A stretch of DNA of 20,676 nt, from IMG/VR virus record IMGVR_UViG_3300017991_000440, positions 1-20,676 of that record. One strand, given 5' to 3'. Position 1 is the stretch's first letter, and the number at the start of each line of letters is the position of its first letter. The translations under genes were made by a program, and so were the position numbers. The DNA is from a virus. This document shows positions 6,873 to 20,676 of the stretch, one piece after another. The notes under the pieces were generated by a model. The model did not search any database and was not told where the DNA came from. It was given only the letters and a program-made list of their open reading frames with translations.

Positions 6873-6873
6873 T

Positions 6874-6901: not shown

Positions 6902-6904
6902 AGT

Positions 6905-6918
6905 GGGATAGGAGCGGG
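6905..6918 (+). promoter_or_regulatory. GGGATAGGAGC start-associated box
   Basis: GGGATAGGAGCGGG directly abuts ATG 6919. It is nearly the same as the start-associated sequence I recall from TM4-like mycobacteriophages (GGGATAGGAGCCC), and contains an AGGAG ribosome site. Confidence 0.65.
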
Positions 6919-7260: not shown

Positions 7261-7277
7261 CGCAATGGGGCAGAGGG

Positions 7278-7303
7278 CCCCCCGGCCCCCCGTCAACGGG
7301 GGG
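7278..7303. repeat. Family A hairpin repeat, copy A4
   Basis: C6-GG-CCCCCCGTCAACGGGGGG, 17 nt after the connector stop. It is followed by GAGGTAGCGG and the GTG start at 7318. Confidence 0.85.
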
Positions 7304-7317
7304 CAGCGAGGTAGCGG

Positions 7318-7683: not shown

Positions 7684-7712
7684 CCCCCCTCGATCCCCCC
7701 GTCAACGGGGGG
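7684..7712. repeat. Family A hairpin repeat, copy A5
   Basis: Begins on the base after the TAA stop. C6-TCGAT-CCCCCCGTCAACGGGGGG. The same spacer, TCGAT, occurs in A12. Confidence 0.85.
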
Positions 7713-7727
7713 AGGCCGGCGACGGGT

Positions 7728-7739
7728 CGAGGGTACTCG
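7728..7739. repeat. Family B hairpin B5 (CGAG-GGTA-CTCG)
   Basis: Four-bp stem with GGTA loop in the gap between A5 and the next gene. It is the shortened form of the GGCGAG-RGTA-CTCGCC type, with the right arm intact (CTCGCC). Confidence 0.6.
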
Positions 7740-7765
7740 CCGTGGCAACGCACCGGAGATAGGGA

Positions 7766-8113
7766 ATGGCGAAGGGCAAGAACGTCAGGGTCTCGTGGAC
7801 GATCGACAAGAAGAAGCTGCGCAGTCTGTCGGGGGACGTGAAGAAGCGGGCCTCGAAGGCGGTGCAGGAGACCAGGGCGGACCTGGCGCGGGAGATGCGC
7901 AGCCGGGCTCCTCGACGAGAGGGGGAGCTGGCGGAGAGCATCAAGGAGTACGAGCCGGGGCCGACCAGGGGCGTGGTGTGGGTCGACGCCAAGCACGGGA
8001 TCCACGTGGAGTATGGGACATCCAGGATGCCGGCGCAGCCGTTCATCAGGCCGGCGGCCAAGGCGGTGGAGGCGGAGTGGAAGAAGCGGGCGGAGGCAGT
8101 TTTCGACGAATGA
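7766..8113 (+). CDS. HK97 gp10-like neck / tail-completion protein
   Basis: 115 residues, basic. 'LRSLSGDVKKRASKAVQETRADLAREMRSRAPRREGELAESIKEY' (quoted in part) then 'VVWVDAKHGIHVEYGTSRMPAQPFIRPAA' (part) is the recognisable HK97-gp10 family pattern: an N-terminal amphipathic helix, 'aP..tG.L..si', then 'yg.fvEfGT..mpaqPFlrPA'. These proteins act in the neck between head closure and tail. The start ATG 7766 follows GGAGATAGGGA. Gene order (connector, closure, gp10, terminator) is canonical. Confidence 0.88.
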   Translation: MAKGKNVRVSWTIDKKKLRSLSGDVKKRASKAVQETRADLAREMRSRAPRREGELAESIKEYEPGPTRGVVWVDAKHGIHVEYGTSRMPAQPFIRPAAKAVEAEWKKRAEAVFDE

Positions 8114-8116
8114 GGC

Positions 8117-8152
8117 GGGCGACCGGGCCTGCGTACTGGCCTTCGTTCGCCC
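8117..8152. repeat. Nested hairpin containing family B member B6
   Basis: Outer arms GGGCGA (8117-8122) and TCGCCC (8147-8152). The inner unit, GGCCTG-CGTA-CTGGCC (8126-8141), differs from B11 (GGCCAG-GGTA-CTGGCC) by one mismatched stem base and one loop base, so it is a degenerate family B copy. It lies just after the gp10-like stop. Confidence 0.55.
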
Positions 8153-8165
8153 CTACCTGTGGTGA

Positions 8166-8612
8166 GTGAGTGAACTGGTGAGCGTACTCAGTGCGATCGA
8201 CACGTGGCTGTATGAGACGCTGACGGGGGACGGGACGCTGGTGGATCTGCTGGCGTCGGCGACGAGTGTGTTTGTGGACCGGGCGGTGCAGGGGGCGGCG
8301 CGGCCGTACGTGACGTGCGAGGTGCAGCTGGGACACGACGTCATGGGCGTGGGCACGGTCCGGCTGATGACTCGGGCGGAGTACATGGTCCGGGCGGTGA
8401 CGGAGAGCACGAGTTTCGCGAGTGCGGACGCCATCATGGAGCGGGCGGATTACCTGCTGCACGGCGCGGCGATCGAGAACAATGCGGACGGGACGATCCT
8501 GAGCTGTGTGCGGGACATGCCGCTGAGAGGGATCGACGATTACCCCGGCGGGGTCGAGGTGCGGTGGGCCGGCGGGGTGTATGTGATTCAGTGTCAGGTA
8601 GTGGAAGCGTGA
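8166..8612 (+). CDS. Tail terminator / tail completion protein
   Basis: 148 residues. It starts with a helix 'VSVLSAIDTWLYETLTGDGTLVDLL' (part), then 'VFVDRAVQGAARPYVTCEVQL', 'VRLMTRAEYMVRAVTEST', 'ADAIMERADYLLHGA' and 'GVEVRWAGGVYVIQCQVVEA'. The 'i...v...P..s.RPYvtf......' beginning, central 'y.vrav' strand and final strand are typical of siphovirus tail terminators (gp17/DUF3168-type), which cap the tail tube and dock to the head. GTG 8166 is used; GTG 8178 (in GTGAGCGTACTC) is an alternative start and neither has a strong ribosome site. It immediately precedes the major tail protein, which fits. Confidence 0.75.
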   Translation: MSELVSVLSAIDTWLYETLTGDGTLVDLLASATSVFVDRAVQGAARPYVTCEVQLGHDVMGVGTVRLMTRAEYMVRAVTESTSFASADAIMERADYLLHGAAIENNADGTILSCVRDMPLRGIDDYPGGVEVRWAGGVYVIQCQVVEA

Positions 8613-8620
8613 GCAGGAGT

Positions 8621-8671
8621 CACCTCCCGAAGGTTGGCGAGAGTACTCGCCTGGAGAGCCTTCGGGAGGTG
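8621..8671. repeat. Nested hairpin with family B core B7
   Basis: Outer arms CACCTCCCGAAGG (8621-8633) and CCTTCGGGAGGTG (8659-8671) are perfect 13-bp complements. Inside sits the perfect unit GGCGAG-AGTA-CTCGCC (8636-8651). The left arm and core recur at 9755, which lacks the right arm. Confidence 0.85.
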
Positions 8672-8696
8672 GGAGCGGACAGTGACCCGAGAGAGA

Positions 8697-8742
8697 GGTG
8701 CCAGGCACTCAGCCGGAGTACCGTCTGGAAGTGCCGGGCACC
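8697..8742. repeat. Nested hairpin of GGTGCC/GGCACC type with inner B8
   Basis: Arms GGTGCCAGGCACT (8697-8709) and AGTGCCGGGCACC (8730-8742) pair with one mismatch, and each arm is itself near-palindromic. The inner CGG-AGTA-CCG (8714-8723) is a weak family B unit. It ends 18 nt before the tail-tube start. Confidence 0.7.
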
Positions 8743-8745
8743 GGA

Positions 8746-8760
8746 GGGCTAGGAGGTAGC
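8746..8760 (+). promoter_or_regulatory. GGGCTAGGAGG ribosome site of the major tail protein gene
   Basis: GGGCTAGGAGGTAGC precedes ATG 8761. It contains a perfect AGGAGGT and resembles the GGGATAGGAG box with a C for A change. It decides ATG 8761 over an upstream in-frame GTG at 8698 inside the hairpin. Confidence 0.65.
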
Positions 8761-9747
8761 ATGCCACGGAGAGCGACGATCCATCAGGTTGTCCAGATCG
8801 GTGTCGAAGCGACGCCGGGGACGACGCCGGCTGGCGGGGCGGACAAGCGCCTCCTGGCCACGAGTTTCGAGATCCAGCCGACGCTGGAGATCACGCCGTT
8901 CAGGCCACGGGGGTTCAAGTTCCCCACGCTGGCGGCGCTGGGCAAGGAATGGGCGGGGGGATCGATCAGCGGGCAGGCGGCGTACAACGACCTGACCTAC
9001 CTGCTGGCAGGCCTGATCGCCACACCGACGCCGGCGCAGCAAGGCGCCACGACGGCGTACCTGAGCTCGTTCGAGCCGGACACGGATGGTCCCGACGCCG
9101 TGACGACGTTCTATGTCCAGGAGGGCGGGAGCGTCCGGGCGCACAGCATCAACTATGCGATGGTGAACCAGCTGGGGCTGACGTTCAACCGCGACAACGT
9201 CGAGGTGAGCGGGGAGCTGATCGGGCGGTCGTTCACGGACTATATCAGCCTGACGGGGAGCCCGAGCGACATCGCGGAGAAGCCGATCCTGCCGGCTCAC
9301 GTGAGTGTGTACGTGGATGATTCCGCCGCGGCGCTGGGGACGACGCAGCTGACGCACGTGCTGAGCGCAGAGTTCACGCTGGGGAACCGGTTCACGCCGA
9401 TGTGGACGCTAAACCGATCGGAGCCGAGCTGGGCGGACTATGTCGAGGGGGAGCCGGAGCTGAGCCTGACGCTGACGATGGAGGCAGACGGCGATGGGAT
9501 GGACCTCCTGAGCAACGCGCAGGACGGCGACGAAAAGTTCATCCGCATCGAGGCCCAGGGCGACCTGATCGAGGACACCTATCACTACAAGCTGCTGATC
9601 GACATGTGCGGCAGGATCAGCGACTTTGGTGGGTTCAGCGATGAGGATGGGGTCTATGCGGTGCAGTGGCCGTTCGCGGGCTGCCACGACGCGACGTGGG
9701 GCAAGGCGCTGAGTGTGGCGCTGACGAATAGCATTTCGAGTCTGTAG
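8761..9747 (+). CDS. Major tail protein (tail tube)
   Basis: 328 residues. This is the subunit of the tail tube through which DNA passes. Supporting features are 'VVQIGVEATPGTTPAGGADKRLLATSFEIQP' (part), a common opening of phage tail tube proteins ('qvG.Et..GT...a...l..t.l...P'), followed by 'GKEWAGGSISGQAAYNDLTYLLAGL', 'YAMVNQLGLTFNRDNVEVSGELIGR' (part) and a repeated beta domain with 'EFTLGNRFTPMWTLN' and 'PELSLTLTMEAD'. It lies between tail terminator and tail assembly chaperone genes, the canonical place. The start ATG 8761 has a perfect AGGAGGT. The long 3' spacer contains a composite hairpin. Confidence 0.85.
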   Translation: MPRRATIHQVVQIGVEATPGTTPAGGADKRLLATSFEIQPTLEITPFRPRGFKFPTLAALGKEWAGGSISGQAAYNDLTYLLAGLIATPTPAQQGATTAYLSSFEPDTDGPDAVTTFYVQEGGSVRAHSINYAMVNQLGLTFNRDNVEVSGELIGRSFTDYISLTGSPSDIAEKPILPAHVSVYVDDSAAALGTTQLTHVLSAEFTLGNRFTPMWTLNRSEPSWADYVEGEPELSLTLTMEADGDGMDLLSNAQDGDEKFIRIEAQGDLIEDTYHYKLLIDMCGRISDFGGFSDEDGVYAVQWPFAGCHDATWGKALSVALTNSISSL

Positions 9748-9754
9748 GAGAGTC

Positions 9755-9802
9755 CACCTCCCGAAGGTGGGCGAGGGTACTCGCCTCGAAGTGCCGTGCA
9801 CC
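9755..9802. repeat. Chimeric repeat with family B core B9
   Basis: The left part, CACCTCCCGAAGG (9755-9767), is identical to the left arm at 8621. The core GGCGAG-GGTA-CTCGCC (9770-9785) is a perfect family B hairpin. The right part, CTCGAAGTGCCGTGCACC (9785-9802), is identical to the right flank at 15080-15097. The two flanks do not pair with each other, unlike those of the parental forms. Confidence 0.8.
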
Positions 9803-9810
9803 GTGAAGGG

Positions 9811-9823
9811 GAGGATAGGTAGG
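9811..9823 (+). promoter_or_regulatory. GAGGATAGGTAGG start-associated box
   Basis: It contains GGATAGG and directly abuts ATG 9824, continuing the pattern seen at 2418, 5068 and 6905. Confidence 0.55.
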
Positions 9824-10252
9824 ATGGCGATCAAGTTGGGGCAGCTGCTCAGGGCGGAGCAGCGGACGTTCAGGCTGGACGTGGGGCTGACGGAGCCGGT
9901 CAAGGTCACGTACTACCCGACCAAGCTGACGCTGGAGACGATCACGGACCTGCAGGCAGCGCTGACGGCGCGTGAGATGGACAAGGTCGCGGCGATCCTG
10001 GCGGAGATCATCTCGCACTGGGACATCGTGGATGACGACGCTGGGGAGATGGTGCCGATCACGACGGAGTCGCTGCGACGGCTGCCGATGCAGTTCATTG
10101 GAAGTCTTGTGCGGGGGATCGGCGCAGACGTAAACCCTCAGGGGAGGAGCGAAGAGCCCTCAAACGGTGGCTCGTTCTCGGCCGGGAAACGAGCACGGCG
10201 TGGTGCCCGGAATGGTACCTCGTCGTCAGAGCCGCCCGCTACCTCGGCGTAG
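9824..10252 (+). CDS. Tail assembly chaperone, short form (lambda gpG analogue)
   Basis: 142 residues. Siphoviruses make a short chaperone and a longer frameshifted form that coat the tape measure during tail assembly. Here 'FRLDVGLTEPVKVTYYPTKLTLETITDLQA' (part) and 'VAAILAEIISHWDIVDDDAGEMVPITTESLRRLP' (part) match the common actino/cyano-siphophage chaperone pattern ('...w.ytp..lt.e........l...l...i..WDl.dd.g..vp.t.e.l..lp'). The last ~35 residues are low-complexity (SEEPSNGGSFSAGKRARRG), consistent with a short tail that is bypassed on frameshifting. It lies between the tail tube and tape measure genes. Confidence 0.82.
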   Translation: MAIKLGQLLRAEQRTFRLDVGLTEPVKVTYYPTKLTLETITDLQAALTAREMDKVAAILAEIISHWDIVDDDAGEMVPITTESLRRLPMQFIGSLVRGIGADVNPQGRSEEPSNGGSFSAGKRARRGARNGTSSSEPPATSA

Positions 10253-10374
10253 GGCCGTGGGAGCTGGCGGTGCGGCCGGTGTTCTGGATGAACGCGGCGC
10301 TGGCGGCGGAGGCGGCGGAGATCGGGGCGCGGAATGAGGTGCGGAGTGGGCCGAGGAAGCTCGGGCGGAAGTAG
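10036..10374 (+). CDS. Frameshift extension of the tail assembly chaperone (lambda gpT analogue)
   Basis: The -1 frame relative to the short chaperone is open from 10036 to the TAG at 10372-10374 and contains no ATG, GTG or TTG until well inside the conserved part, so it cannot be started independently in a useful way. Its product includes RRALKRWLVLGRETSTAWCP and AARYLGVGPWELAVRPVFW followed by MNAALAAEAAEIGARNE. That resembles the second halves of siphovirus chaperones ('a.ylg..PwelldmpfyW...al.aeaaE..ar'). A fusion through a -1 slip is inferred. The G-runs at 10113-10117 and 10141-10144 are candidate slip sites, but neither is a canonical X-XXY-YYZ heptamer in the right phase. The boundary given is the limit of the open frame, not the slip point. 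Confidence 0.65.
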   Translation, partial: RRWGDGADHDGVAATAADAVHWKSCAGDRRRRKPSGEERRALKRWLVLGRETSTAWCPEWYLVVRAARYLGVGPWELAVRPVFWMNAALAAEAAEIGARNEVRSGPRKLGRK

Positions 10375-10379
10375 TGGCA

Positions 10380-10415
10380 CCCCAGCCCCCCCCAGCCCCC
10401 CCGTCAACGGGGGGG
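10380..10415. repeat. Family A hairpin repeat, copy A6
   Basis: Three C-runs (4, 8 and 7) separated by AG, then GTCAAC and seven G. It lies 5 nt after the chaperone extension stop and is followed by AGGAGGACC. Confidence 0.85.
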
Positions 10416-10441
10416 AGGAGGACCGGGATCTGCGGGCGGTG

Positions 10442-10513
10442 ATGGTGGTGGTGTACCGGGCGCTGGTGTGTGTGTGTAGGTATCTGAGGAAGAGGTATCG
10501 CATAGAAGACTGA
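10442..10513 (+). CDS. Possible 23-residue hydrophobic/basic peptide
   Basis: ATG 10442 gives MVVVYRALVCVCRYLRKRYRIED and then TGA. The hydrophobic start plus basic end would suit a membrane-active or membrane-anchored peptide. A GGAGGAGG ribosome-like run at 10413-10420 fits a CTG 10430 or GTG 10439 start better than ATG 10442. With so few residues and no known family this is only a candidate. Confidence 0.25.
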   Translation: MVVVYRALVCVCRYLRKRYRIED

Positions 10514-10518
10514 GACTG

Positions 10519-10537
10519 GCCGCCTAGCGGCGTTTTA
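10519..10537 (+). terminator. Terminator-like hairpin GCCGC-CTA-GCGGC with T-run
   Basis: A perfect 5-bp GC stem with a CTA loop, followed by GTTTTATAT. It is one of only two places in the window where a hairpin is followed by a T-run. It could reduce transcription into the tape measure gene or require antitermination. Confidence 0.6.
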
Positions 10538-10570
10538 TATGGGCCGCGTGCCGGCTTTGCGGACGACGGC

Positions 10571-10584
10571 GGGAGAGTACTCCC
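10571..10584. repeat. Family B hairpin B10 (GGGAG-AGTA-CTCCC)
   Basis: Perfect 5-bp stem with AGTA loop, between the two terminator-like hairpins. Confidence 0.7.
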
Positions 10585-10623
10585 AAGAGCCGGTGCCTCG
10601 CCCCACAGCGTCGGGCGCGGGTG

Positions 10624-10655
10624 AAAGCCCCCCCTCGACGAGGTGGGGCTTTTTC
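10624..10655 (+). terminator. Strong intrinsic-terminator-like hairpin before the tape measure gene
   Basis: AAAGCCCC (10624-10631) pairs with GGGGCTTT, the interior CCTCGACGAGG pairs further, and the run TTTTTC follows. The A-run on the left makes it potentially bidirectional. It lies only about 30 nt before the tape measure start, so read-through or attenuation control of that large gene is suggested. Confidence 0.7.
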
Positions 10656-10683
10656 GTTGGGAAAGGATGGGAACGGACAGAGC

Positions 10684-13600
10684 GTGAGTATTACAGTCGC
10701 CAACCTCCAGGCTGTGGTGCAGATGAACACCAAGGACATGGAGGACGGGACAAAGAGAACCGAGGGCTTTCTCGGCCGGCTGACGGGCGGGTTTGGCGGC
10801 CTGGCGTCCGTGGTTGGTGGCGTGGGGCTGGCGCTCGGCGGCCTCGGAGCAATCAAGAAAGCGACGGAGGTATCCGCGGATTTTGAGTCCCAGGTCAATA
10901 TCCTGGGCACGGCCGTGGGCGATGCTGGAGTGTCGCTGGACACGTACAGCGATGCCGCCCTAAAGATGGGGGCCGACACCTCACTTGTGGGCATCAGCGC
11001 GAGCCAAAGCGTTGAGGCCATGACGAACTTTGCCAAGGCCGGCCTGTCCGTAACAGACATGTTTGGCGGCGCTGAGGGGCTGAACTCCTATCTCGAGGAG
11101 GGGACAGCGCTCTCCGGTGCGCTGCGTGCCGCTGTGGATCTGCAGGCAGCCTCGGAATTGGACCTTGCTGCCGCCTCGGATGCGATCAGCGTTGCCATGG
11201 CGACCTACGGCATCCCCGCCGAGGAAGCCGTGGCGATCACCAACAGTTTTGTCCAGGCTGCTGACGCGTCGGTGGCCTCGGTCCCAGACCTGGTGCAGTC
11301 CCTGCGAACCTTTGGTCCCGTCGCCGCGCGTATGGGGCTGAGCCTGGAGGACACGAACAACGCTCTAGCGATTCTGTCGCAGCGAGGTATCACCGGTGCT
11401 ACGGCTGGCACCCAGATGAAGTCGATGTTCATGGCCATCTCAGGGCCGAGCAAGAATGCCCGAGAGGCCATGGAGGGGCTGGGCATCGCGTTCTATGACG
11501 CCGAGGGCAACCTCAAGTCGATGCCGGACATTCTGGGCAACGTCAACGAGGCCATGGCGGGGCTGACTCAGCAAGCCAAGGACGAAACGCTCAAAGATCT
11601 GTTCGGGACCTATGGCGGTGTGGCAGCCAGCGCGCTGCTGGAGGAGGGCGCCGAGGGCTGGGCCTTTATGGGCGAGGCGACCGAAGCCGCTTCTACAGCG
11701 AGCGAGACGGCCGCGGCGCGGACTCAGGGACTCAACGCCTCGCTAGAGGCGCTCGAGGGCACTGTCGAGACGTTCATGATCAAGGCGGGGACGCCGCTGA
11801 TCGAAAAGTTCTTTACGCCGCTGGTGGGGTTCGCGGCCACGGTCGTGGAGAGCGTGATCCCGATGCTGGACGACTTGGGGCCGGCCATGGACGGCGTGAG
11901 TGGCTTTGTTCAGGGGATCATCGGCGGCGTTGGCGACATGGCCAGCGACGCGGGGGCGGCCGCCGAGGGTGAGGGAGGCGGCTTTTCGCTGGATGCGCTG
12001 ATCGGGAACCTGTTCGCCGGGGCCGACACCTGGCTGGACGAGAACAGCGCGGCGATCGGGCCCAAGATCGGCGGGATGATCGACGGGGCGTTCGCGGCAG
12101 GGATCACGTGGATCGAGAACAACTTTCAGCCGCTGGTGGCGGATCTGTTCGCGGCGTTCAAGACGATTATCGAGGAAGCGCCGGCGCTGTTGGAGGAACA
12201 CGGGCCGACGATTGGGGAGACGTATGGCGAGCTCCTGGGCAAGGTGGTGCGGCTGGGCATCACGGCCCTGGTCAAGATCGTGGCCACCATCGGCAAAGAG
12301 CTCTGGGGCGTGGTCAGCGACATCATCACGGCTGGGGCCAGTGGTGAGGAGGGAGCAGCCGGCACGCTAGCGACCGCCTATCTGGACACGATGAAGGCGG
12401 TGCTCAACGGGTTCATCACGGGCCTGACGGGCGACCCGCAGTGGGGCGAGAGCCTCAAGAACTTTTTCATCGGCGACCCAGACGGGATCATCACCAAAGC
12501 CAAACAGTCCATTGCCGACGAAGTCGAGAACATGAAGCAGGCCGGCAAGGACATGGTGCAGGGCATGATCGACGGCGTGAAGGAGGCGCCGGGGAAGCTT
12601 GTCGACGCGTTCGCTGACGCGGTGGGCGCGCCGGTCAAGTGGGTCAAGAAGATGCTCGGCATCGAGTCCCCGTCGACGGTCTTTAGGGACATCGGCGGGT
12701 ACGTGATCGAGGGCCTGGGGCTGGGGATCTCGGAAGGGATACCGCAGATCGAGGGGCCGATCGGCGATGTGATGGGGGTGTTCGACTCGATCATCGGGTG
12801 GCTGACGCGGTTCGCGATCGTGGCGGGGAGCCAGGGCCTCGAGGCGGCGGGAGAGACGTTCGAGGACGTCGCGGACGGCATCGAAGATATGTCGACCGCG
12901 TTCATGCAGTTCGCCCAGGGAGCGGCGGCGGTCAAGGCTGGCAACCTCGACCAGGGCGCCATGGTGGCCTACCTCGACCAGTGGGCCTGGGCGATGGAAC
13001 AGGCTGTGCTGCGGGTCAAGGAGGTGGTGGACAATGTAGGGTGGAAGACGATCGGGGACATGAAGGGCCGGGCGACGCGGCTCGGGACAATCCTCGAGAG
13101 CATGACCACCGACCTGAGCAAGATGAAGCCGGGCGACTGGGGCGTGATGCTGGCCTACCTGGACCAGCTCACTCAGTTCCTGCCGATGCTGGTGCGGGGC
13201 GTCGTGGGGATGGTGACGGACCCGGAGACGGGGCTGGGCGCGATCGTCCTGGACGACGTGGACAAATGGTCGGGGCAGCTGGCGGGATCGTTCGTGCTGA
13301 TGGGCGCGAACCTGGCGGGGATCGAGGCCAGCGAGGACGCGAGTTTCCTCGAGAACGCGGCCACGTACCTGGACCAGGTGTTCGGGTTCGCGAAGCTGGC
13401 GAAAGAGCGGATGACCGCCCTGGGGCCCGAGGCGATGGCGGCGTACGAGGCGGCGAGCGAGGGCGTGCCGTTCATCACCGGGCTGCTGGGGCTGCTGGGG
13501 CAGGACCTCAAGGCCGAGCTTCCCGAGGAGGGCTACGAGGAACGGCTGCCCGAGTATCTGCGGCTGGTCGAGTGGTCGGTGGGCTTGGTGACGCCGGCGC

Positions 13601-14982
13601 TGCAGCGGATCAAGGCTGCGTGGGGGGCGATCCTCGAGGAGACGAAAGAGATCGGCGGCCTGACGCAGAGCGCGCTGGGCCTGCTGGGCATCGGGATGGC
13701 GGCCGAGCTTCCAGAGGAGGGGTACCGGGAGGCGCTGCCGGGATACCTCGAGCTGGTGGAGTGGAGCACCGGGCTGGCGGTGCCGGCGCTGCAGCGGATC
13801 AAGGCCGCGTGGGGTCAGGCGCTGGTGGACACCCAGGAGATCGGTGGCCTGGTGCAGAGCGCGCTGGGGCTGCTGGGGCTGGGCCTGGCGGCAGAGATGC
13901 CGGACGAGACGTTCGCGGACACACTGCCGGACTATCTCGGCGTCGTAGAGTGGACGACGGACCTGGTGGTGCCGGCGATCGAGCGGATCAAGCAGCGGTG
14001 GGGAGAGCTGCTGGCGAGCGCGGCGGAGGCCGCTGGGAACGTGACGAGCGTGCTGGGCGTGCTGGGGACCGCATTCGACCTTCAGCCGCTGGCACCGAAC
14101 TGGCCACAGCTACTGAGCGATGCGGTGGCGGCCGTCGGGCTGGGCGCGGACTGGATGATCGCCGAGCTGCAGAGCCTACGGTCGCGGTGGGGCGACGACG
14201 TGCTGGCGGCGGTGGCGGAGACCTCGGGCGAGATCCAGGACGTGATGGGGCTGTTCGACCTGGCCAAGCTGTTCAACGATCTGCAGACGCAAAAGAGCGA
14301 CAAGGGGACGAAGCGGATCGCGTTTGAGAACGTGGTGGACAGGTTCCTGCAGCAGCTGCGGTATGCGAGCGAGCGGCTCAAGGCGGAGCTGCCGGGGATC
14401 AAGGCGATCTGGGGCGACATGCTGGACGTCAGCATCGAACTGGCGGACAGCTTTGCGCAGCTCTTTGGCAATATCGCCTCGGCGATGAAGGCGGGCGAGG
14501 AGATCGCGGCGAGCAAGGGGCTCAAGCCGCAGGCGGTGCTGGACGCGCTGGACGTGTTCCAGCAGATGGTCTCAGATGTTCAGACGATCGGGGGGTTCGC
14601 GGGTCTGAACGTGACGGGCCCGAACGTGGGCGACGTGGGGACGGGGATGGGGATGACGCCGGGGGCACCCACAGCGCTGACGGGGTTGGACTGGCACGGG
14701 CTCGGGGGCCAGGGTACTGGCCTTGGCGGAGGGTACTCCGCTGGGGGGCTGACAGCGGCACCGCGGGGGCTGGGCGTCGCGGGTGGCGGCGACGGTAGTT
14801 TTGGAGCTATCGCGGAGGCGGTGCGGGCGGGGATTCGCGAGGGGCTGGCGGAGAGCCGGCTGGAGATCGAGCTGCTGGTGAGGCAGCGGGACACGGAGCG
14901 GAAGCGGTTCAGCGCACGGCTGGGCAGGCTGGAAAAGATGGCGACGGAGATGACGGTGAGTATGGAGGCGGCTGGGGTGTGA
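10684..14982 (+). CDS. Tail tape measure protein
   Basis: 1432 residues. It sets tail length and is ejected with the DNA. From GTG 10684: a hydrophobic segment at about 40-57 (GLASVVGGVGLALGGLGAI), the TP901/PhageMin_tail-type domain at about 60-290 ('FESQVNILGTAVG', 'SQSVEAMTNFAKAGLS', 'LAILSQRGITGATAGTQMKS'), and near 655-680 the tape-measure motif 'MLGIESPSTVFRDIGGYVIE'. Five tandem ~63-73-residue helical repeats follow at 937-1262, then a Gly-rich linker at about 1310-1370 encoding two family B hairpins, and a C-terminal coiled coil. Using about 1.5 angstrom per residue, the tail would be roughly 200 nm. The longer frame from GTG 10621 is rejected because it would translate the terminator hairpin. 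The ribosome site is weak (GAAAGGATGGG, 13-15 nt away). Confidence 0.93.
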   Translation: MSITVANLQAVVQMNTKDMEDGTKRTEGFLGRLTGGFGGLASVVGGVGLALGGLGAIKKATEVSADFESQVNILGTAVGDAGVSLDTYSDAALKMGADTSLVGISASQSVEAMTNFAKAGLSVTDMFGGAEGLNSYLEEGTALSGALRAAVDLQAASELDLAAASDAISVAMATYGIPAEEAVAITNSFVQAADASVASVPDLVQSLRTFGPVAARMGLSLEDTNNALAILSQRGITGATAGTQMKSMFMAISGPSKNAREAMEGLGIAFYDAEGNLKSMPDILGNVNEAMAGLTQQAKDETLKDLFGTYGGVAASALLEEGAEGWAFMGEATEAASTASETAAARTQGLNASLEALEGTVETFMIKAGTPLIEKFFTPLVGFAATVVESVIPMLDDLGPAMDGVSGFVQGIIGGVGDMASDAGAAAEGEGGGFSLDALIGNLFAGADTWLDENSAAIGPKIGGMIDGAFAAGITWIENNFQPLVADLFAAFKTIIEEAPALLEEHGPTIGETYGELLGKVVRLGITALVKIVATIGKELWGVVSDIITAGASGEEGAAGTLATAYLDTMKAVLNGFITGLTGDPQWGESLKNFFIGDPDGIITKAKQSIADEVENMKQAGKDMVQGMIDGVKEAPGKLVDAFADAVGAPVKWVKKMLGIESPSTVFRDIGGYVIEGLGLGISEGIPQIEGPIGDVMGVFDSIIGWLTRFAIVAGSQGLEAAGETFEDVADGIEDMSTAFMQFAQGAAAVKAGNLDQGAMVAYLDQWAWAMEQAVLRVKEVVDNVGWKTIGDMKGRATRLGTILESMTTDLSKMKPGDWGVMLAYLDQLTQFLPMLVRGVVGMVTDPETGLGAIVLDDVDKWSGQLAGSFVLMGANLAGIEASEDASFLENAATYLDQVFGFAKLAKERMTALGPEAMAAYEAASEGVPFITGLLGLLGQDLKAELPEEGYEERLPEYLRLVEWSVGLVTPALQRIKAAWGAILEETKEIGGLTQSALGLLGIGMAAELPEEGYREALPGYLELVEWSTGLAVPALQRIKAAWGQALVDTQEIGGLVQSALGLLGLGLAAEMPDETFADTLPDYLGVVEWTTDLVVPAIERIKQRWGELLASAAEAAGNVTSVLGVLGTAFDLQPLAPNWPQLLSDAVAAVGLGADWMIAELQSLRSRWGDDVLAAVAETSGEIQDVMGLFDLAKLFNDLQTQKSDKGTKRIAFENVVDRFLQQLRYASERLKAELPGIKAIWGDMLDVSIELADSFAQLFGNIASAMKAGEEIAASKGLKPQAVLDALDVFQQMVSDVQTIGGFAGLNVTGPNVGDVGTGMGMTPGAPTALTGLDWHGLGGQGTGLGGGYSAGGLTAAPRGLGVAGGGDGSFGAIAEAVRAGIREGLAESRLEIELLVRQRDTERKRFSARLGRLEKMATEMTVSMEAAGV
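13492..14469 (+). repeat. Tandem ~63-residue repeats inside the tape measure gene
   Basis: Units run 13492-13680, 13681-13869 and 13870-14058 (exactly 189 nt each), then 14059-14250 and 14251-14469, which are diverged. Units 1-3 share the plan LLG...AELPEEGY...LPxYLxLVEW...VPALQRIKAAWG...EIGGLxQSALG. Earlier YLDQ-containing segments (12961-13430) look like still older copies. Each unit is probably a pair of amphipathic helices stacked along the tail axis. Confidence 0.9.
14707..14741. repeat. Two adjacent family B hairpins B11 and B12 inside the tape measure gene
   Basis: GGCCAG-GGTA-CTGGCC (14707-14722) and GCGGAG-GGTA-CTCCGC (14726-14741), both perfect 6-bp stems with the same GGTA loop but different stem sequences, 3 nt apart. 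They encode part of a Gly-rich linker (GQGTGLGGGYSAGG). Confidence 0.85.
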
Positions 14983-14984
14983 CG

Positions 14985-15011
14985 CCCCCCCTGCCCCCCG
15001 TCAACGGGGGG
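14985..15011. repeat. Family A hairpin repeat, copy A7
   Basis: C7-TG-CCCCCCGTCAACGGGGGG, starting 2 nt after the tape measure stop codon. Confidence 0.85.
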
Positions 15012-15033
15012 CAAAGGCAGGGTCTGTAGTGTA

Positions 15034-15097
15034 GGTGCAAGGCACTGGGCGAGAGTACTCGCCGGGCAGGAGTACCTGCCTCGAAGTGCCGTGCACC
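15034..15097. repeat. Nested double hairpin with family B cores B13 and B14
   Basis: Outer arms GGTGCAAGGCACT (15034-15046) and AGTGCCGTGCACC (15085-15097) pair with one mismatch. Inside are two perfect units: GGCGAG-AGTA-CTCGCC (15048-15063) and GGCAGG-AGTA-CCTGCC (15065-15080). The product is a cloverleaf-like three-stem element 12 nt before the distal tail gene. Confidence 0.85.
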
Positions 15098-15109
15098 AGG
15101 TGAGGATGG

Positions 15110-15910
15110 ATGGCTGAGTATATCAAGTTCGATGGGAATGTGCTGTGGCACGGGAATGGATCCACTCCGGAGGCGGTGTTCGAGGCGGAGGAGGACATTA
15201 ACGGCCGGGTGCACGTGATCGAGGACTTGGGGGACCGGTACGCGAACCTGTACCGGGACACCAAGGCGGAGAATCGTGCCTACACGGCCACGTTCACGCT
15301 CAAGGCGACGCCGACGGTGTCGTTGCAGGTGCTCAAGGCGCAGTGGGAGCAGATGCACCGGGCGCGCGGGGGCTTGCGGACGCTGGAACGGCAGACGGAC
15401 ACGGGGCGGATCCTGCAGCTGAGTGTGGTGCCGGAGACGCCGCAGTGGAGCGAGGAGCACACGAGCTGGCAGCAGGTGGTGCAGGCGTACACGTCGCCGG
15501 ACCCGTTCTGGCAGAGCGCGGCGGAGCAGAGCGCGAGCGCGGCGTACGACGGGGAAACGCCCGTGGCGCTGACGTGCGTGAACGACGGGGACGAGCCGTG
15601 CTGGGTGCGGTTCGACCTGGCGGACGCGATCGAGGATCCCAAGATCGAGCTGGCGGACGAGTGGGAGCTCGAGTTCGGGCTGACGATGGGTGCCGGCGAT
15701 GCGCTGGCCATCGTATGCAAGACGCCGGCGACTGCATGGTACACGGAGAGTGGCGAGGATCCGACGCGGGCGTACGGGTACAGGACGGCGGCGACGCTGT
15801 TCCGCAAGACCAAGCTGGCGGTGGGGAGCAACGCACTGAGTCTGAGTGCGACGAGTGGGACGGGGACGTGTGTGGCGTATTGGAGGGAGCTCTTTGATGC
15901 ACTCAGGTAG
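15110..15910 (+). CDS. Distal tail protein (Dit-like)
   Basis: 266 residues. It would form the ring joining the tail tube to the tip. 'INGRVHVIEDLGDRYANLYRDTKAENRAYTATFTLKA' (quoted in part), 'LKAQWEQMHRARGGLRTLE' and 'LQLSVVPETPQWSEEH' fit the N-terminal part of siphovirus distal tail proteins, where a beta core ends with 'l..l..lf....g.l.......g......v.v'. 'VQAYTSPDPFWQS' matches the common 'l.f.a.dPfw' element preceding the C-terminal galectin-like domain. The remaining half (about 145-266) is beta-rich, as expected for that domain. ATG 15110 follows GTGAGGATGG. It sits between tape measure and hub genes, the canonical Dit place. Confidence 0.8.
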   Translation: MAEYIKFDGNVLWHGNGSTPEAVFEAEEDINGRVHVIEDLGDRYANLYRDTKAENRAYTATFTLKATPTVSLQVLKAQWEQMHRARGGLRTLERQTDTGRILQLSVVPETPQWSEEHTSWQQVVQAYTSPDPFWQSAAEQSASAAYDGETPVALTCVNDGDEPCWVRFDLADAIEDPKIELADEWELEFGLTMGAGDALAIVCKTPATAWYTESGEDPTRAYGYRTAATLFRKTKLAVGSNALSLSATSGTGTCVAYWRELFDALR

Positions 15911-15929
15911 GGGCCAGGCAGAGGGGACA

Positions 15930-15960
15930 GGTGCCCGGCACCTCGCAGGTGCCGGGCACC
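15930..15960. repeat. Perfect 14-bp hairpin of GGTGCC/GGCACC type
   Basis: GGTGCCCGGCACCT (15930-15943), loop CGC, AGGTGCCGGGCACC (15947-15960). It belongs with the outer arms at 8697 and 15034 but has no family B core inside. It lies between distal tail and hub genes, followed by GAGAGGGATAG-ATG. Confidence 0.85.
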
Positions 15961-15962
15961 GA

Positions 15963-15971
15963 GAGGGATAG
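15963..15971 (+). promoter_or_regulatory. GAGGGATAG start-associated box
   Basis: GAGGGATAG directly abuts ATG 15972, matching the GGATAG(G) motif seen before other starts, again just downstream of a strong hairpin. Confidence 0.5.
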
Positions 15972-18155
15972 ATGCCGTACGAGGGTGGGCTCTGGAGACC
16001 GCACAACTGGGATGACTATGAGATCGAGCTGATCGACGCCAGCCTGGACACGGTGGGTGTGCTGGACGAGGCGGTGGGGATCAAGCTCGATTGGGCGCTG
16101 TTCGGGCAGGGGTCGGGGAGTCTGGCGCTGCACCTGGGGAGCGACCGGGCGGACGACCTGCTGACGGATGCGATGTGGTACCTGCGGGTATATCGCGACG
16201 GGGTGCAGCTGCGGGACTGGATGGTGGCCAAGGACGACCGAGGCTACACCATCGCGAACCAGACCGTGGACGAGTATATCGAGATCGCGATCTCGCCACT
16301 GGACATGATCCTCAAGGACAGGTTCTGCCTGCCGGACGGGGGCAGCGGACAGTTCAAGTCGGACAGCCTGCCGTACGACGACGGGTTCAAGTGGATCGTG
16401 GACCACGTGGTGGGGCCCAGCGCGTACACGTCACCAGGGGGAGACCCGAAGAGCATCACGGGGTTCACGGTGGCGGCGGACGAGAGCGCGCACGGGACGA
16501 CGGCGGCGATCGAAGCGGCGCACAAGATGGACCTGTACGAGTTCCTGTCCAAGTACGGGCCGACGTGGGACATCGACTGGCGGGTGCGCCTGGAGAAGAC
16601 GTCGGGGATCGCAAACCAGTTCGTGTTCGAGACGTTCACTCCGGCAAGGGGGCTGGACAAGAGCGCGGACAACGGGGCGCGCTATCCGGTGCTGATGAAC
16701 GACGCCAGCGGGGAGGTGCCTGGGGCGAGGCGATACAGCCCCAGGACCGGGTTCAAGAACGTGATCATCCAGGCCGACCTGAGCGACGAGGTGACCGACG
16801 CGACGAGCGTGAGCACGTTCGGCCGGCACGAGGTGCTGAGCGACACGAACGACAGCGACCAGCTCGACGCGCAGCTGGAAGAGAACGCTCGGCGGATGGG
16901 GTACGATTTCGATTTCGTCGAGAGCGAGATGCTCGAGGTGGGCAGCGAGAGCTGGCAGATCCAGCCTGGGGACACGGTGACGATCGCGAACGATCACCTG
17001 GCTGTGACCGCAGAGGATCGGCTGGTCAAGCAGGTGACGTTGACGATCGAGCCGGGGGATCCGGAGCAGGCCGAGCTCACGTTCGGGGAGTATGAGAAGG
17101 GGCTGGGCGACAAGGTCAAGGAGGCGGGCGGCGGGGGCGGAGGAGCCGACGGGTTCGATGAGGCGCTGTTGGGGAATCAGGTTGGGGCCACGTTCATCCC
17201 ATTCAGTCCCACGGACCCGAGCATCATCACAATTGCCGGTGAGAACGGGATCACGCTGTCGCCGGGGGCGAACGCGATCACGATCGGGCTGGGGAACACT
17301 GCAGTGACGCCGGGGACCTACGGCGACGCCACGCACGTCGGGCAATTCACGGTCGATCAGCAGGGGCGGATCACGGCGGCGTCGAGCGTGACGATCTCGG
17401 GGGTGACGCCGGCGACACACGACATCATCAGTGGGCACAGCGTGAGCGGGACGGCGGGCCAGGTGGTGGGCCTGTCGGGGGACACGACGCTGGCGCTGCT
17501 GGACGTGAGCAGCGGCCCGGACGCAACGTCCAAGATCCTCAAGACGGACGGGAGCGGGTTCGTCGAGGTGCAGAGGTTGTATGTCGGGGACGGGGGGAAC
17601 TATATCTCGTCCGGCGCGACGCAGTTCCTGTTCGTGACGGACAACACGTATGTCGTGATCACTGCGGCCGCGGGTAGCGCAATCTGGGGCAACGACTATT
17701 TCTACAGGTCTGGCGGGGGCGGGTACATCGGGGTCTCGACGGCGCGGTGGGCGAACGGGTATTACAGCGCGCTGGACGTGGACGGGAACATCACGGTCAC
17801 GGGGAACGTGGACGGGGTGGACCTGGGGGCGTTCAAGACGGCGTACGATGCGCATGTGCACGTGGTGGGTACGTCGGAGGTGGCGACCAGCAACACGCAG
17901 CCGACGCTGTCGGGCAAGACGGACAACTGGGCGGTGTACGGGAGCATCTCGTACTCGCTGGCAGCGGCAACCAGCGGCGGCGCCGCTCTGTACTACGACG
18001 CCACAGGCCATGTCAACACCTCGGGAGGCGCACCGATCAAGGTGCCAACAAGGCCACACACCCACAACCTGATAGGCGGCGTGGCGGATGCGGCGGTGTC
18101 AGCGCATGGCCACTTGTACAACGAGCCGGACACGCCGACGGGGACGCCGAGCTAG
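15972..18155 (+). CDS. Tail hub protein fused to a tail fibre (receptor-binding) region
   Basis: 727 residues. Residues 1 to about 375 resemble siphovirus baseplate-hub proteins (ReqiPepy6 gp37-like): 'YEIELIDASLDTVGVLDEAVGIKLDWALFGQGSGSLAL' (part), 'GVQLRDWMVAKDDRGYTI', 'GPTWDIDWRV', 'LEENARRMGYDFDF' and 'VESEMLEVGSESWQIQPGDTVTI' (part). A Gly-rich linker (about 383-390) leads to a fibre region. The latter starts with 'PGTYGDATHVGQFTVDQQGR' (about 447-466), a motif widespread in tail fibres, followed by repeated Ser/Thr/Gly strands. The C-terminus has three His-x-His sites: 628-630 (HVH), 696-698 (HTH) and 712-714 (HGH), as in metal-binding trimeric fibre tips. The protein probably attaches the tail tip to the host surface. 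The stop codon abuts repeat A8. Confidence 0.82.
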   Translation: MPYEGGLWRPHNWDDYEIELIDASLDTVGVLDEAVGIKLDWALFGQGSGSLALHLGSDRADDLLTDAMWYLRVYRDGVQLRDWMVAKDDRGYTIANQTVDEYIEIAISPLDMILKDRFCLPDGGSGQFKSDSLPYDDGFKWIVDHVVGPSAYTSPGGDPKSITGFTVAADESAHGTTAAIEAAHKMDLYEFLSKYGPTWDIDWRVRLEKTSGIANQFVFETFTPARGLDKSADNGARYPVLMNDASGEVPGARRYSPRTGFKNVIIQADLSDEVTDATSVSTFGRHEVLSDTNDSDQLDAQLEENARRMGYDFDFVESEMLEVGSESWQIQPGDTVTIANDHLAVTAEDRLVKQVTLTIEPGDPEQAELTFGEYEKGLGDKVKEAGGGGGGADGFDEALLGNQVGATFIPFSPTDPSIITIAGENGITLSPGANAITIGLGNTAVTPGTYGDATHVGQFTVDQQGRITAASSVTISGVTPATHDIISGHSVSGTAGQVVGLSGDTTLALLDVSSGPDATSKILKTDGSGFVEVQRLYVGDGGNYISSGATQFLFVTDNTYVVITAAAGSAIWGNDYFYRSGGGGYIGVSTARWANGYYSALDVDGNITVTGNVDGVDLGAFKTAYDAHVHVVGTSEVATSNTQPTLSGKTDNWAVYGSISYSLAAATSGGAALYYDATGHVNTSGGAPIKVPTRPHTHNLIGGVADAAVSAHGHLYNEPDTPTGTPS

Positions 18156-18181
18156 CCCCCCAACCCCCCGTCAACGGGGGG
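18156..18181. repeat. Family A hairpin repeat, copy A8
   Basis: Starts on the base after the TAG stop. C6-AA-CCCCCCGTCAACGGGGGG, then GGCGAGGAGGAGAAGG leading to ATG 18206. Confidence 0.85.
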
Positions 18182-18205: not shown

Positions 18206-18697
18206 ATGAGGATCGAGGATACGGTGCTGCATGTGTGGGGGATGAGGACGTTGTGCCAGGCGGCGGCGACTGGGGCGCTACTGGATGTGTTCGCGAACCT
18301 GGCGGAGTCGATCGAGGGGCAGACGGAGGAGGTGCTCGAGGCGCGGGGGCTGGGCTGGGCTGAGAACGGGCTGCGGATCGCGCCTGGGGCGAAGGGGTTG
18401 GATGGCACGGTGGGGCTGGACGTGACGCGGGAGGAACTGGGGGCGCTGGTGCAGGCGTACTATGGCAGCCCAGAGTGCCGGCCGATGATCTGGCCGCAGG
18501 AGTTGCCGGCGGCATTCAGGCGTGCGGCGCGGACGCTGGGGCCGGCGCTTATGGAGTGGCGGGACGAGGCGAACGCGGAGGCGCAGTTCGAGGCGATGCC
18601 GGAGGGGATGCGGAAGAAGGTGGCGTATTTGTGCAGGGTAGAGAATGCCCCCCCTCTCCCCCCCGTCAACGGGGGGGAATCGGAGGAGCCTTGTTAA
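18206..18697 (+). CDS. Unknown protein after the fibre gene, C-terminus encoded by repeat A9
   Basis: 163 residues, no recognised family. ATG 18206 follows GAGGAGGAGAAGGGGG. The protein is mostly helical: 'HVWGMRTLCQAAATGALLDVFANLAESIEG' (part), 'LGALVQAYYGSPECRPM', 'AAFRRAARTLGPALMEWRDEANAEAQFEAMPEGMRKKVAYL' (part). The last ~18 residues, ENAPPLPPVNGGESEEPC, come from repeat A9, so the natural end of the protein has been replaced or extended by the repeat. By position it could be a fibre assembly or tip accessory protein, but that is only inference. Its stop overlaps the TTG start of the next gene. Confidence 0.7.
   Translation: MRIEDTVLHVWGMRTLCQAAATGALLDVFANLAESIEGQTEEVLEARGLGWAENGLRIAPGAKGLDGTVGLDVTREELGALVQAYYGSPECRPMIWPQELPAAFRRAARTLGPALMEWRDEANAEAQFEAMPEGMRKKVAYLCRVENAPPLPPVNGGESEEPC
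18648..18677. repeat. Family A hairpin repeat, copy A9 (in coding sequence)
   Basis: C7-TCT-C7-GTCAAC-G7. Unlike most copies it lies before the stop codon and is translated as PPLPPVNGG at the end of the upstream protein. Confidence 0.85.
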
Positions 18698-18936
18698 CAC
18701 CACAGGGCGAGTGGAAGCTGGATCGGCAGGTGCGAGTGGTGTACCAGCAGCTGGGGGATCTGAGGCGGGCGCTGGCGGACCTGGACGCGCTGATCGCGGA
18801 GGCGGATGAGGGCGGGGGCACGGATGGGGCTGACCGGGTGGGTCGGCTGATCCGGGCGAACGAGCGGGCGACGATTGGGGCGACGCTTGGGGGGTGGCTG
18901 GAGACGCTCAGACAGCGTTGGGACGGTGGGGAATGA
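18691..18936 (+). CDS. Small helical protein of unknown function
   Basis: 81 residues from TTG 18691, which overlaps the previous stop (TTGTTAA) and is preceded at good spacing by CGGAGGAG. Sequence: MLTPQGEWKLDRQVRVVYQQ followed by a helix LGDLRRALADLDALIAEADE, a GGGTDGADRV turn, and a second helix RLIRANERATIGATLGGWLETLRQRW. The protein looks like two amphipathic helices that could form a helical hairpin or coiled coil. No known family, and not obviously a holin, since the helices are charged. Coupled to both neighbours (its TGA overlaps ATG 18933). Confidence 0.65.
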   Translation: MLTPQGEWKLDRQVRVVYQQLGDLRRALADLDALIAEADEGGGTDGADRVGRLIRANERATIGATLGGWLETLRQRWDGGE

Positions 18937-19502
18937 CCCCCCTAGCCCCCCGTCAACGGGGGGAACTGGCGGAAGCGTGCCAGCGGGACGCTGGCGCTCC
19001 GGGGAAGCGGCTGCTGCCGTTGCGCGGGGGGCGGATCTCGCAGGGATGGGGCGAGAATGGGGCGTACTATGCGCGGTGGGGACTGCGCGGGCACAACGGA
19101 GAGGACTGGGTCAACGGGCCTGCAGACAGACCTATCACGCCCCCCCCTAGCCCCCCCGTCAACTGGGGGGGAATCCCGGAGGCGTGGGATGACGAGGTGT
19201 TCTGGGTGTACGCGACGGGGGCCGGGGTACTGCGGGTGGGCAGCTCGGACGGGTATGGGCTGTACGCCTATGTGATGGGAGAACGGTGGCACTGGCTGTT
19301 CGCGCACCTGGCGGCAATCTGGGTGATGGACAAGGGTGTGGCGGTGCCGGGTGAGGTGATCGCGTGCATGGGGTACAGCGGGATCACGGTGCCGGCGGGC
19401 ATCGCGGGGCGGCATCTGCACTATGGGGTGAGGCCGGCGGAGATGGACCGGGGGAACGGGTACGGGGGGTATGTGGACCCATCTGGGGTGAGGGCAGCGT
19501 GA
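18933..19502 (+). CDS. M23-family peptidase (tail lysin or endolysin) carrying an inserted repeat
   Basis: 189 residues. M23 zinc endopeptidases cut peptide cross-links of peptidoglycan. The core reads 'GRISQGWGENGAYYARWG', then His54-x3-Asp58 in 'GHNGEDW', 'VYATGAGVLRVG', 'GYGLYAYVMG', His125 in 'LFAHLAAIWV', 'GVAVPGEVIACMGYSG' and His161-Leu-His163 in 'GRHLHYGVRP'. All expected metal and catalytic residues are present. Residues 70-80 (PPPSPPVNWGG) are the translated repeat A11, lying between the first His/Asp pair and the next strand; relatives normally have a short 'ap.GtpV.A' link there. Residues 1 to about 26 are translated from repeats A10 and D2. ATG 18933 overlaps the previous stop (ATGA). 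Position after fibre genes fits entry or lysis. Confidence 0.85.
   Translation: MTPLAPRQRGELAEACQRDAGAPGKRLLPLRGGRISQGWGENGAYYARWGLRGHNGEDWVNGPADRPITPPPSPPVNWGGIPEAWDDEVFWVYATGAGVLRVGSSDGYGLYAYVMGERWHWLFAHLAAIWVMDKGVAVPGEVIACMGYSGITVPAGIAGRHLHYGVRPAEMDRGNGYGGYVDPSGVRAA
18937..18963. repeat. Family A hairpin repeat, copy A10 (in coding sequence)
   Basis: C6-TAG-CCCCCCGTCAACGGGGGG, starting right after a TGA stop and just inside the M23 gene, whose N-terminus it encodes (PLAPRQRG). Confidence 0.85.
18979..18995. repeat. Family D hairpin, copy D2
   Basis: GCCAGCG-GGA-CGCTGGC, a perfect 7-bp stem, followed by GCTCCGGGGAAGCGG. It has the same layout as D1 at 3129 with a different stem sequence, and is translated in the N-terminus of the M23 protein. 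Confidence 0.65.
19140..19171. repeat. Family A hairpin repeat, copy A11, inside the M23 peptidase gene
   Basis: C8-TAG-C7-GTCAACT-G7. The loop has T in place of the closing G. It reads in frame as PPPSPPVNWGG with no stop, and sits in a loop region of the enzyme. Confidence 0.85.
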
Positions 19503-20676
19503 CAGGGAGAAGGCCCCCCCTCGATCCCCCCCGTCAACGGGGGGGAACGTCGGCAGCGTGGCTCTTGGTGGCGTGGGTGCTGCTCACGACGGTCGTGGTG
19601 GGGTCCGGGTTGACGGGCGAGGCAACGCGGGCTCAGAGCACGGGCGTCGGTGTTGCGCCGGTGGCCGACACGTATGTGACGGGGTGGGATCCGGAGGCGG
19701 CCAAAGATACTCAGCCGTATCTGAGGCTCCAGGCAACGGGGAACGACGTGGTGGCGTTGGCGCTGGTGACGTACCCGCCGGACGTGGACCTGAGTGAGGG
19801 CGGCGTGTTGCGGATGACCTTCACGGAGCGGACGAACGCGCAGGGAATGATCGTCCGGGTGTACCAGGGGATCGAGTGGAACCGGAGAATCGTGTACGCG
19901 GGGCATCTGTGGGAGAGCCACCTGGGCGAGAGTACTCGCCTTGCGCAGTTCACGGTGTACGCGGAGGAGAGCCTGCCGCGGGAGTGGGAGGTGCTGCTGC
20001 CGGCGTTCGAGCCGGTGGAGGCCGCGGCGAGGCGGAACCTGATCATCGCGGGGATCTGTCCGAACGGGAGTGTGGGGTACAAGGTGGCCTCGCGAGAGGC
20101 TGGGGGCCAGAGTCCTGGCGTGACGTTCGAGGCGGGCGGGGAGGCGCCTGTAGAGACGCCGACGCGGACGCCGGCCTGGACGCCGGGGCCGAGCACGCCA
20201 TGGCCTCCGTGGCCGACGACGACGCCGATGCCGTTCCCGACGCCGTGGGACGAGGGGCCCAGGGCGGTGGTGCGGATGTGGCGGGAGGACTGGGCGGACG
20301 GTGTCTATGTCTGCGTGGACGCGGAGGGGTACCGAGGACTGAGGCCGAGCGGGCTGGTGATGGCATCGGCCACATGGGCGCCGGGGGAAGGGCTCACGTG
20401 GGCGGATCCGGTGTGTGTGCCGCTGAGTGAGTGGGCGGAGTGGCAGGTGTACTGGGTGGGGGAAGCGGGGCAGAGTACTGCCTTTCCGACGGCGACTGCG
20501 CAGAGTACTGCGCTTGCGTCGCCGTCGGTGGCTGCTACCTCGACCTGTACGCCGAGCGTGACGGCGTCACCCTCGCCGACTCCAACACAGGCGCCGACCT
20601 GCATACCGTTGCAGGGGTACGCGCTGGGGGAGCTTTTAGCAGAGGCAAGCATGCGGATGGCGAACGCGGTCGGGGA
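19499..20676 (+). CDS. Secreted DNRLRE-like protein with Pro/Thr-rich linkers (partial at right edge)
   Basis: The frame stays open from GTG 19499 (overlapping the M23 stop as GTGA) to the window end, at least 392 residues. Residues 6-16 are translated repeat A12; residues 19-37 are a hydrophobic signal/anchor (AAWLLVAWVLLTTVVVGSG) with a possible cleavage after TRAQ. The domain at about 50-205 begins 'VADTYVTGWDPEA', 'PYLRLQATGNDVVALALVTY', 'GGVLRMTFTER', recalling DNRLRE/CBM96-type beta domains ('aDTYv....p..n.G....L.v......allrF'). Then come a TP-rich linker (about 217-250), a second small domain with 'DWADGVYVCVDAEGYRG', and another Ser/Thr/Pro linker (about 322-367). Family B hairpins encode GESTRL, GQSPGV and QSTA-type pieces. 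A surface-binding or host-modifying role is inferred; the C-terminus is unseen. Confidence 0.75.
   Translation, partial: MTGRRPPLDPPRQRGGTSAAWLLVAWVLLTTVVVGSGLTGEATRAQSTGVGVAPVADTYVTGWDPEAAKDTQPYLRLQATGNDVVALALVTYPPDVDLSEGGVLRMTFTERTNAQGMIVRVYQGIEWNRRIVYAGHLWESHLGESTRLAQFTVYAEESLPREWEVLLPAFEPVEAAARRNLIIAGICPNGSVGYKVASREAGGQSPGVTFEAGGEAPVETPTRTPAWTPGPSTPWPPWPTTTPMPFPTPWDEGPRAVVRMWREDWADGVYVCVDAEGYRGLRPSGLVMASATWAPGEGLTWADPVCVPLSEWAEWQVYWVGEAGQSTAFPTATAQSTALASPSVAATSTCTPSVTASPSPTPTQAPTCIPLQGYALGELLAEASMRMANAVG
19514..19545. repeat. Family A hairpin repeat, copy A12 (in coding sequence)
   Basis: C7-TCGAT-C7-GTCAAC-G7, 11 nt after the M23 stop and inside the next reading frame, where it encodes PPLDPPRQRGG. 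It has the same TCGAT spacer as A5. Confidence 0.85.
19925..19940. repeat. Family B hairpin B15 (GGCGAG-AGTA-CTCGCC) in coding sequence
   Basis: Perfect 6-bp stem, identical to B7 and B13, translated as GESTRL in the secreted protein. Confidence 0.8.
20106..20119. repeat. Family B-like hairpin B16 (GCCAG-AGTC-CTGGC) in coding sequence
   Basis: Five-bp perfect stem with the loop changed to AGTC. It has the same reading phase as B15, translated GQSPGV. Confidence 0.55.
20469..20482. repeat. Family B hairpin B17 (GGCAG-AGTA-CTGCC) in coding sequence
   Basis: Perfect 5-bp stem with AGTA loop and trailing TTT, translated GQSTAF at the start of the second Ser/Thr/Pro linker. Confidence 0.75.
20498..20513. 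repeat. Family B hairpin B18 (GCGCAG-AGTA-CTGCGC) in coding sequence
   Basis: Perfect 6-bp stem with AGTA loop and trailing TT, 15 nt after B17, translated AQSTAL. Its stem differs from its neighbour's but keeps pairing. Confidence 0.8.

Follow-up and report, generated by a model that had tools for sequence, protein, structure and literature searches.

A hairpin repeat of phage gene junctions read in frame within a predicted M23 peptidase gene

Rickettsia and Wolbachia have palindromic repeats that are read in frame within protein-coding genes, and in a review of 2024 the same was considered conceivable for other prokaryotes (PMC10969869). The Rickettsia palindromic elements are approximately 100–150 bp long (PMC3767692) and are reported to sit in existing open reading frames without destroying them, in solvent-exposed places (PMC3767692, PMC10969869). 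Among phages, the Cluster K mycobacteriophages have SAS and ESAS elements near gene starts, nearly all of them in one orientation and about half with upstream inverted repeats, the SAS being a conserved asymmetric 13-mer, GGGATAGGAGCCC, in non-structural genes (PMC3203893). Bacterial REP elements and MITEs are also short palindromes, mostly intergenic, that are present in many copies and have no coding capacity of their own.

The DNA analyzed here (hereafter the window), a 20,676-base contig from IMG/VR, consists of late siphophage genes, including those for the portal, head protease, major capsid, tape measure, minor tail and Gp37-like proteins, followed by a gene for a predicted M23 peptidase. 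Within the tape measure gene there were three tandem 189-nt units (13512–14078) that were 62–75% alike. A sibling contig, 3300018080_000736, was identical to the window over positions 1–16009 and agreed with it at every copy of the repeat described below within that range. The sibling had approximately 3 kb more sequence upstream, in which there were zero further copies of the repeat, and it ended at 16009, so that the M23 region is known from one contig only.

The element in the window resembles those of Rickettsia and Wolbachia in being a short, many-copy palindrome of which some copies are in frame in genes. The parallel with the Rickettsia elements that was drawn in the original prediction holds for this behavior, in that a palindrome is read in frame and a conserved gene is kept, but it does not extend to membership, for which length, sequence and organism all disagree. 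The Rickettsia elements are approximately 100–150 bp and belong to Rickettsiales, whereas the element here is approximately 32 nt (69 nt with a part that is unexplained) and is in a bacteriophage contig. It is also G+C-rich and apparently unrelated in sequence to the Rickettsia families, and its copies are mostly at gene junctions, with frames that differ between the window and a second contig (L006, below). That a known kind of event, a palindrome coding for protein, has taken place in a new setting, a phage lysin, is partly supported. The window provides a bacteriophage candidate for an in-frame palindrome that is within the catalytic domain of a well-known fold, and as a result insertion, tolerance and activity are testable on one small enzyme.

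Copies of the repeat and their placement

The element is a short, G+C-rich hairpin with the architecture C4-8 N2-5 C6-9 GTCAAC G6-7, and there were 12 copies of it in the window. The pattern CCCCCNGTCAACNGGGGG had 12 sites, all in the + orientation, with 0.03 expected in dinucleotide shuffles, and each of these sites also matched the minus strand with two mismatches (i.e., was near-palindromic). The upstream second C-run (C4 to C8) was present at all 12 copies. Ten of the copies were perfect, the two others being that at 19140–19171, whose loop had an extra T (GTCAACTG7), and that at 5032, which read GTCAACAG6. The arms of the hairpin were equal in every one of the perfect copies (6/6 in seven, 7/7 in three), an outcome that free pairing would produce once in 120, which indicates that the hairpin as such is kept. 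Stop codons are almost absent from the sense strand of the element, whichever of the three frames is read. A search of Rfam identified no match to the element. In contrast to REP elements and MITEs, the element is in a phage, and it was seen with neither an associated transposase nor a target-site duplication.

Eight of the 12 copies were strictly intergenic, compared to 8.7% of the bases (p about 1e-6, a statistic that rests on our own gene calls). A copy was located between the portal and head protease genes (2387–2413), and intergenic cores were present at 5032–5049 (imperfect), 6884–6901, 7286–7303, 7695–7712, 14994–15011 and 18164–18181, with a further core at 10397–10414 between the gene calls at 10252 and 10621. 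Translation of the copy at 2387–2413 would be possible provided that the start codon of the protease is ATG 2380 instead of ATG 2434. Three of the remaining four copies were at gene ends (18659, 18946 and 19527) and one (19140–19171) was deep inside a coding region.

The SAS/ESAS elements appear to be the nearest phage analogue of the junction copies. The traits in common are the single orientation (12/12 on the + strand here), the mostly junctional placement and the inverted repeats upstream of starts. The differences are that the conserved part of the element in the window is the hairpin, that it occurs in structural genes and that the 13-mer is not conserved. There was one near copy of the SAS, GGGATAGGAGCGGGATG, after the element copy at 6884 and before ATG 6919, and elsewhere there was at most GATAGG. 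The hexamer GATAGG was observed shortly upstream of several start codons (2419, 5069, 6907, 7758 and 9814).

Occurrence in other phages

The exact 18-mer was identified in IMG/VR only in this phage, in its identical sibling and in one unrelated contig, and the pattern with the second C-run and a 3-base spacer was identified in this phage only. The unrelated contig (IMGVR_UViG_3300032163_001294, L006) had its copy at 13270–13298, in frame within a polyprotein of at least 1636 residues and directly after an ART-PolyVal domain. This copy reads PESPRQRGE, in another frame than the copy within the M23 gene of the window, and the conserved feature is therefore not the peptide itself. A check for insertion at the site in L006 identified one weak relative, which started beyond the site.

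Phages whose portal protein was 35–45% identical to that of the window had no copies of the element, and no M23 gene was found in these portal relatives. The junction between the portal and protease genes was tight or overlapping in the clear cases (L127, L129 and L132), as opposed to approximately 50 nt with the element here. A blastn search with the element against plasmid and phage collections gave no match, a result that is weakened by the low-complexity filter. We found no literature on such G+C-rich repeats in Chloroflexi, which was our guess for the host from the Thr/Pro-rich proteins. A looser pattern, CCCCNGTCAACNGGGG, matched 109 stretches in viral contigs, nearly all of which did not have the architecture of the element and whose number was close to chance for a collection of this size, and these were discarded.

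The junction copies could be functional phage sites for translation start, transcription stop or RNA processing, comparable to SAS/ESAS or stoperators, with the M23 copy as another such site or a decaying one. Their single orientation and location at junctions, often right before purine-rich start regions, would fit such a role, as would the equal hairpin arms and the scarcity of relatives of the element outside this phage. However, most copies have no common start-linked motif, the element is missing from the same junctions in related phages and there is the in-frame copy in the unrelated L006. On balance, we regard a role as functional sites as possible but rather unlikely, and in itself it does not contradict an insertion in the M23 gene.

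The copy within the M23 peptidase gene

The gene at 18933–19502 on the + strand encodes 189 amino acids from a putative start codon, ATG 18933. The zinc and catalytic residues, all of which the original prediction had described as intact, are indeed kept (H54, D58, H125, H161 and H163), and the M23 family motifs H-x(3)-D and H-x-H are present together with the histidine of A-H-L. PF01551 matched residues 92–168 with a score of 24.4 bits, under the curated cut-off of 28.7 bits, because an extra segment in the protein breaks the match. Zoocin A was also matched (E 1.4e-5). These motifs, the zoocin A match and the matching of both halves of the protein, in order, to a broad profile support its assignment as a predicted M23 peptidase. 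The lysins of Arthrobacter phages Kels and Moloch, and zoocin A, are likewise of the M23 family and have the H-x-x-x-D, A-H-L and H-x-H motifs in common with the window protein, and the tails of the Kels lysin and zoocin A align with it too.

The element copy at 19140–19171 (+ strand) consists of CCCCCCCC followed by TAG, CCCCCCC, GTCAAC, T and GGGGGGG (i.e., C8 TAG C7 GTCAAC T G7). It is in frame, as had been predicted, and encodes residues P70–G80 as PPPSPPVNWGG. Upstream of it are H54 and D58, and downstream of it are VYATGAGVLRVG (residues 92–103), H125 and H161-x-H163.

Relatives of the M23 protein were distant. The Kels lysin was 26% identical and the proteins L121–L125, which came from alignment-based searches with two-sequence alignments, were 24–28% identical, the best being L123 with 33% over the aligned part. 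A single-protein search for M23 relatives in viral contigs identified none. The single match of a genome-contig search (L010) was a chance match to PEAWDDEVFW in an unrelated protein and was rejected. Alignment of the window protein with L123 had one 22-residue gap, which fell on the repeat, and phmmer with L123 broke the window protein into residues 33–71 and 99–166. In five relatives PF01551 matched in one piece from the H-x-x-x-D motif, at profile position 2–3 (e.g., L123 residues 28–122 on positions 2–96), and in a sixth, L121, it matched only from 45. In the window protein the match began only at V92, at profile position 16, and one PHROG match began at V92 likewise.

A profile of ten relatives was ambiguous as to the first core strand, with ungapped scores of 9.0 bits for P67–P82 versus 7.7 bits for W91–D106, and we therefore built a wider profile. 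This comprised 35 M23 domains, 27 of them from genomes that belong to the same class as a Bacilli MAG and eight from phages, with Moloch and L122 nearly identical within the set. Residues 28–68 of the window protein were placed on nodes 3–38 of the wider profile and residues 92–168 on nodes 38–111, in collinear order. Because the first match ends and the second begins at the same node, the extra segment comprises T69–W91, that is, 23 residues or 69 nt (19137–19205, + strand), with the element as its left half, and it is absent from the 35 other domains. The spacing from the zinc-binding Asp to the core strand was eight residues in 32 of the domains (including those of Kels and Moloch), nine in two and ten in one, versus 33 in the window.

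The extra segment is approximately twice the length of the repeat, a point that was absent from the original prediction. The element and one preceding codon account for the first 12 of its 23 codons, and the remaining 11 (IPEAWDDEVFW) had no counterpart in any repeat. Past the G-run, the sequence weakly resembled the tails of the copies at 18946 and 19527 (uncorrected p about 0.016, best pairs). With 12 of the 23 codons explained, there are two readings, a mobile unit that extends beyond its conserved hairpin or a native loop that was long to begin with. The claim of an insertion is thus borne out as far as the frame, the ligands and the relatives without the segment are concerned, but the insert (23 residues) is larger than the repeat (12). 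Similarly, an orthologue without 10–20 residues at this site had been sought, and relatives without the segment exist, but only at 24–33% identity. No empty site was seen at the nucleotide level, since the closest relative is only 33% identical.

Based on these findings, we favor an account in which the gene junctions of a siphophage late operon (head, tail and lysis) would have been colonized by a short, non-coding, REP-like palindrome in one orientation, which may have spread by some REP/MITE-like process. One copy would then have entered the M23 gene within an in-frame addition of 69 nt (23 codons), which lies past the loop that follows the first zinc motif and ahead of the first core strand. 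The insert would be tolerated because the sense strand of the element has almost no stop codons in any frame and encodes a peptide rich in Pro and Gly, and because no catalytic residue lies at the site. We estimate the probability of this account as a whole at roughly two in three. We infer that the segment was gained here and that the predicted enzyme works, and the composition and site of the segment suggest an exposed loop. Junction-marking repeats can thereby become protein termini and loops. A broader proposal, that a mobile hairpin enters both junctions and the phage's own proteins in frame, among them a lysin that would remain functional despite 23 residues added within its catalytic domain, and that palindromes are a source of new phage protein loops, is tentative and we give it somewhat less than an even chance.

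A different placement of the core strand would change how the M23 copy is read. Residues 67–80 (PITPPPSPPVNWGG) might now form the first core strand, in which case the repeat would have overwritten that strand, the extra residues would be 81–104 and the enzyme would probably be damaged. The ten-relative profile and several MAFFT alignments do align the repeat with the strand P-V-Y-A-x-x-x-G-x-V, and an AlphaFold model made with six sequences has residues 76–79 as a strand. That model followed the ten-relative profile alignment with low confidence (pLDDT 48; pLDDT 33 for a model with two sequences), and at such confidence the placement of the segment is unreadable. A Foldseek search with the pLDDT 48 model identified EnpA, LytM and zoocin A, in agreement with an M23 fold. 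We consider an overwritten strand unlikely because a core strand would then contain at least four prolines, and because the 35-domain profile favors V92, where the Pfam match also begins. In addition, all four conserved residues (V, A, G and V) are found in the stretch V92-Y-A-x-x-x-G98-V, from which the alignment with L123 runs nearly without gaps to the GYG and AHL motifs.

The repeat could instead be a scar of recombination and not an insertion, marking a crossover that united the M23 halves of different phages. A large number of near-identical repeats within a genome favors recombination, and 11 of the extra codons could not be traced to a source. Nevertheless, the halves join at a single node of the profile and no part of the domain is duplicated or missing, and repeats of approximately 30 nt are short for homologous recombination, which makes a scar improbable. 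It is still less credible that the repeat caused an assembly misjoin of two different M23 genes, despite the single metagenomic contig at M23, because the repeat of approximately 32 nt is below ordinary read length, the frame and domain order are intact and the window and its identical sibling do not differ at any copy that the sibling covers.

Neighboring translated copies and other repeats

The three copies adjacent to the one in the M23 domain are probably translated at protein ends, and these had been missed in the original prediction. The copy at 18650–18677 (+ strand) is at the C-terminus of the ORF that precedes the M23 gene (18206–18697), and the last residues of this protein (APPLPPVNGGESEEPC, encoded within 18650–18697) come from it. 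The copy at 19514–19545 (+ strand) is at the N-terminus of the ORF that follows the M23 gene (GTG 19499), where, within 19499–19600, it lies between the start codon and the hydrophobic part of a signal-like N-terminal stretch.

The third of these copies (18940–18963, C6 TAG C6 GTCAAC G6, + strand) is in frame after the putative M23 start codon. There are 28 residues before the first conserved proline in the window protein, compared to 5–7 in relatives with a clear start, and the additional residues include this copy, whose translation is PLAPRQRGE, as well as a second palindrome, GCCAGCGGGACGCTGGC (18979–18995, + strand). The M23 N-terminus encoded by 18940–18995 thus seems to be made of two in-frame palindromes. 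TTG 19020 is an alternative start, but its use would remove the first conserved proline. The M23 protein therefore probably carries two in-frame copies of the element.

Other repeats were also observed in the window. A second palindrome family with a common tail (GCCGCCGGGGACGGCGGCGCTCC and GCCAGCGGGACGCTGGCGCTCC) was present at 3129–3151 and 18979–19000. A third repeat, around GGCGAGGGTACTCGCC and with the tail CTCGAAGTGCCGTGCACC, was at gene junctions (9769–9802 and 15064–15097), with variants near 4540 and 7730. Lastly, a hairpin with two 14-nt arms was located at 15930–15960, between a gene that ends at 15910 and one that starts at 15972.
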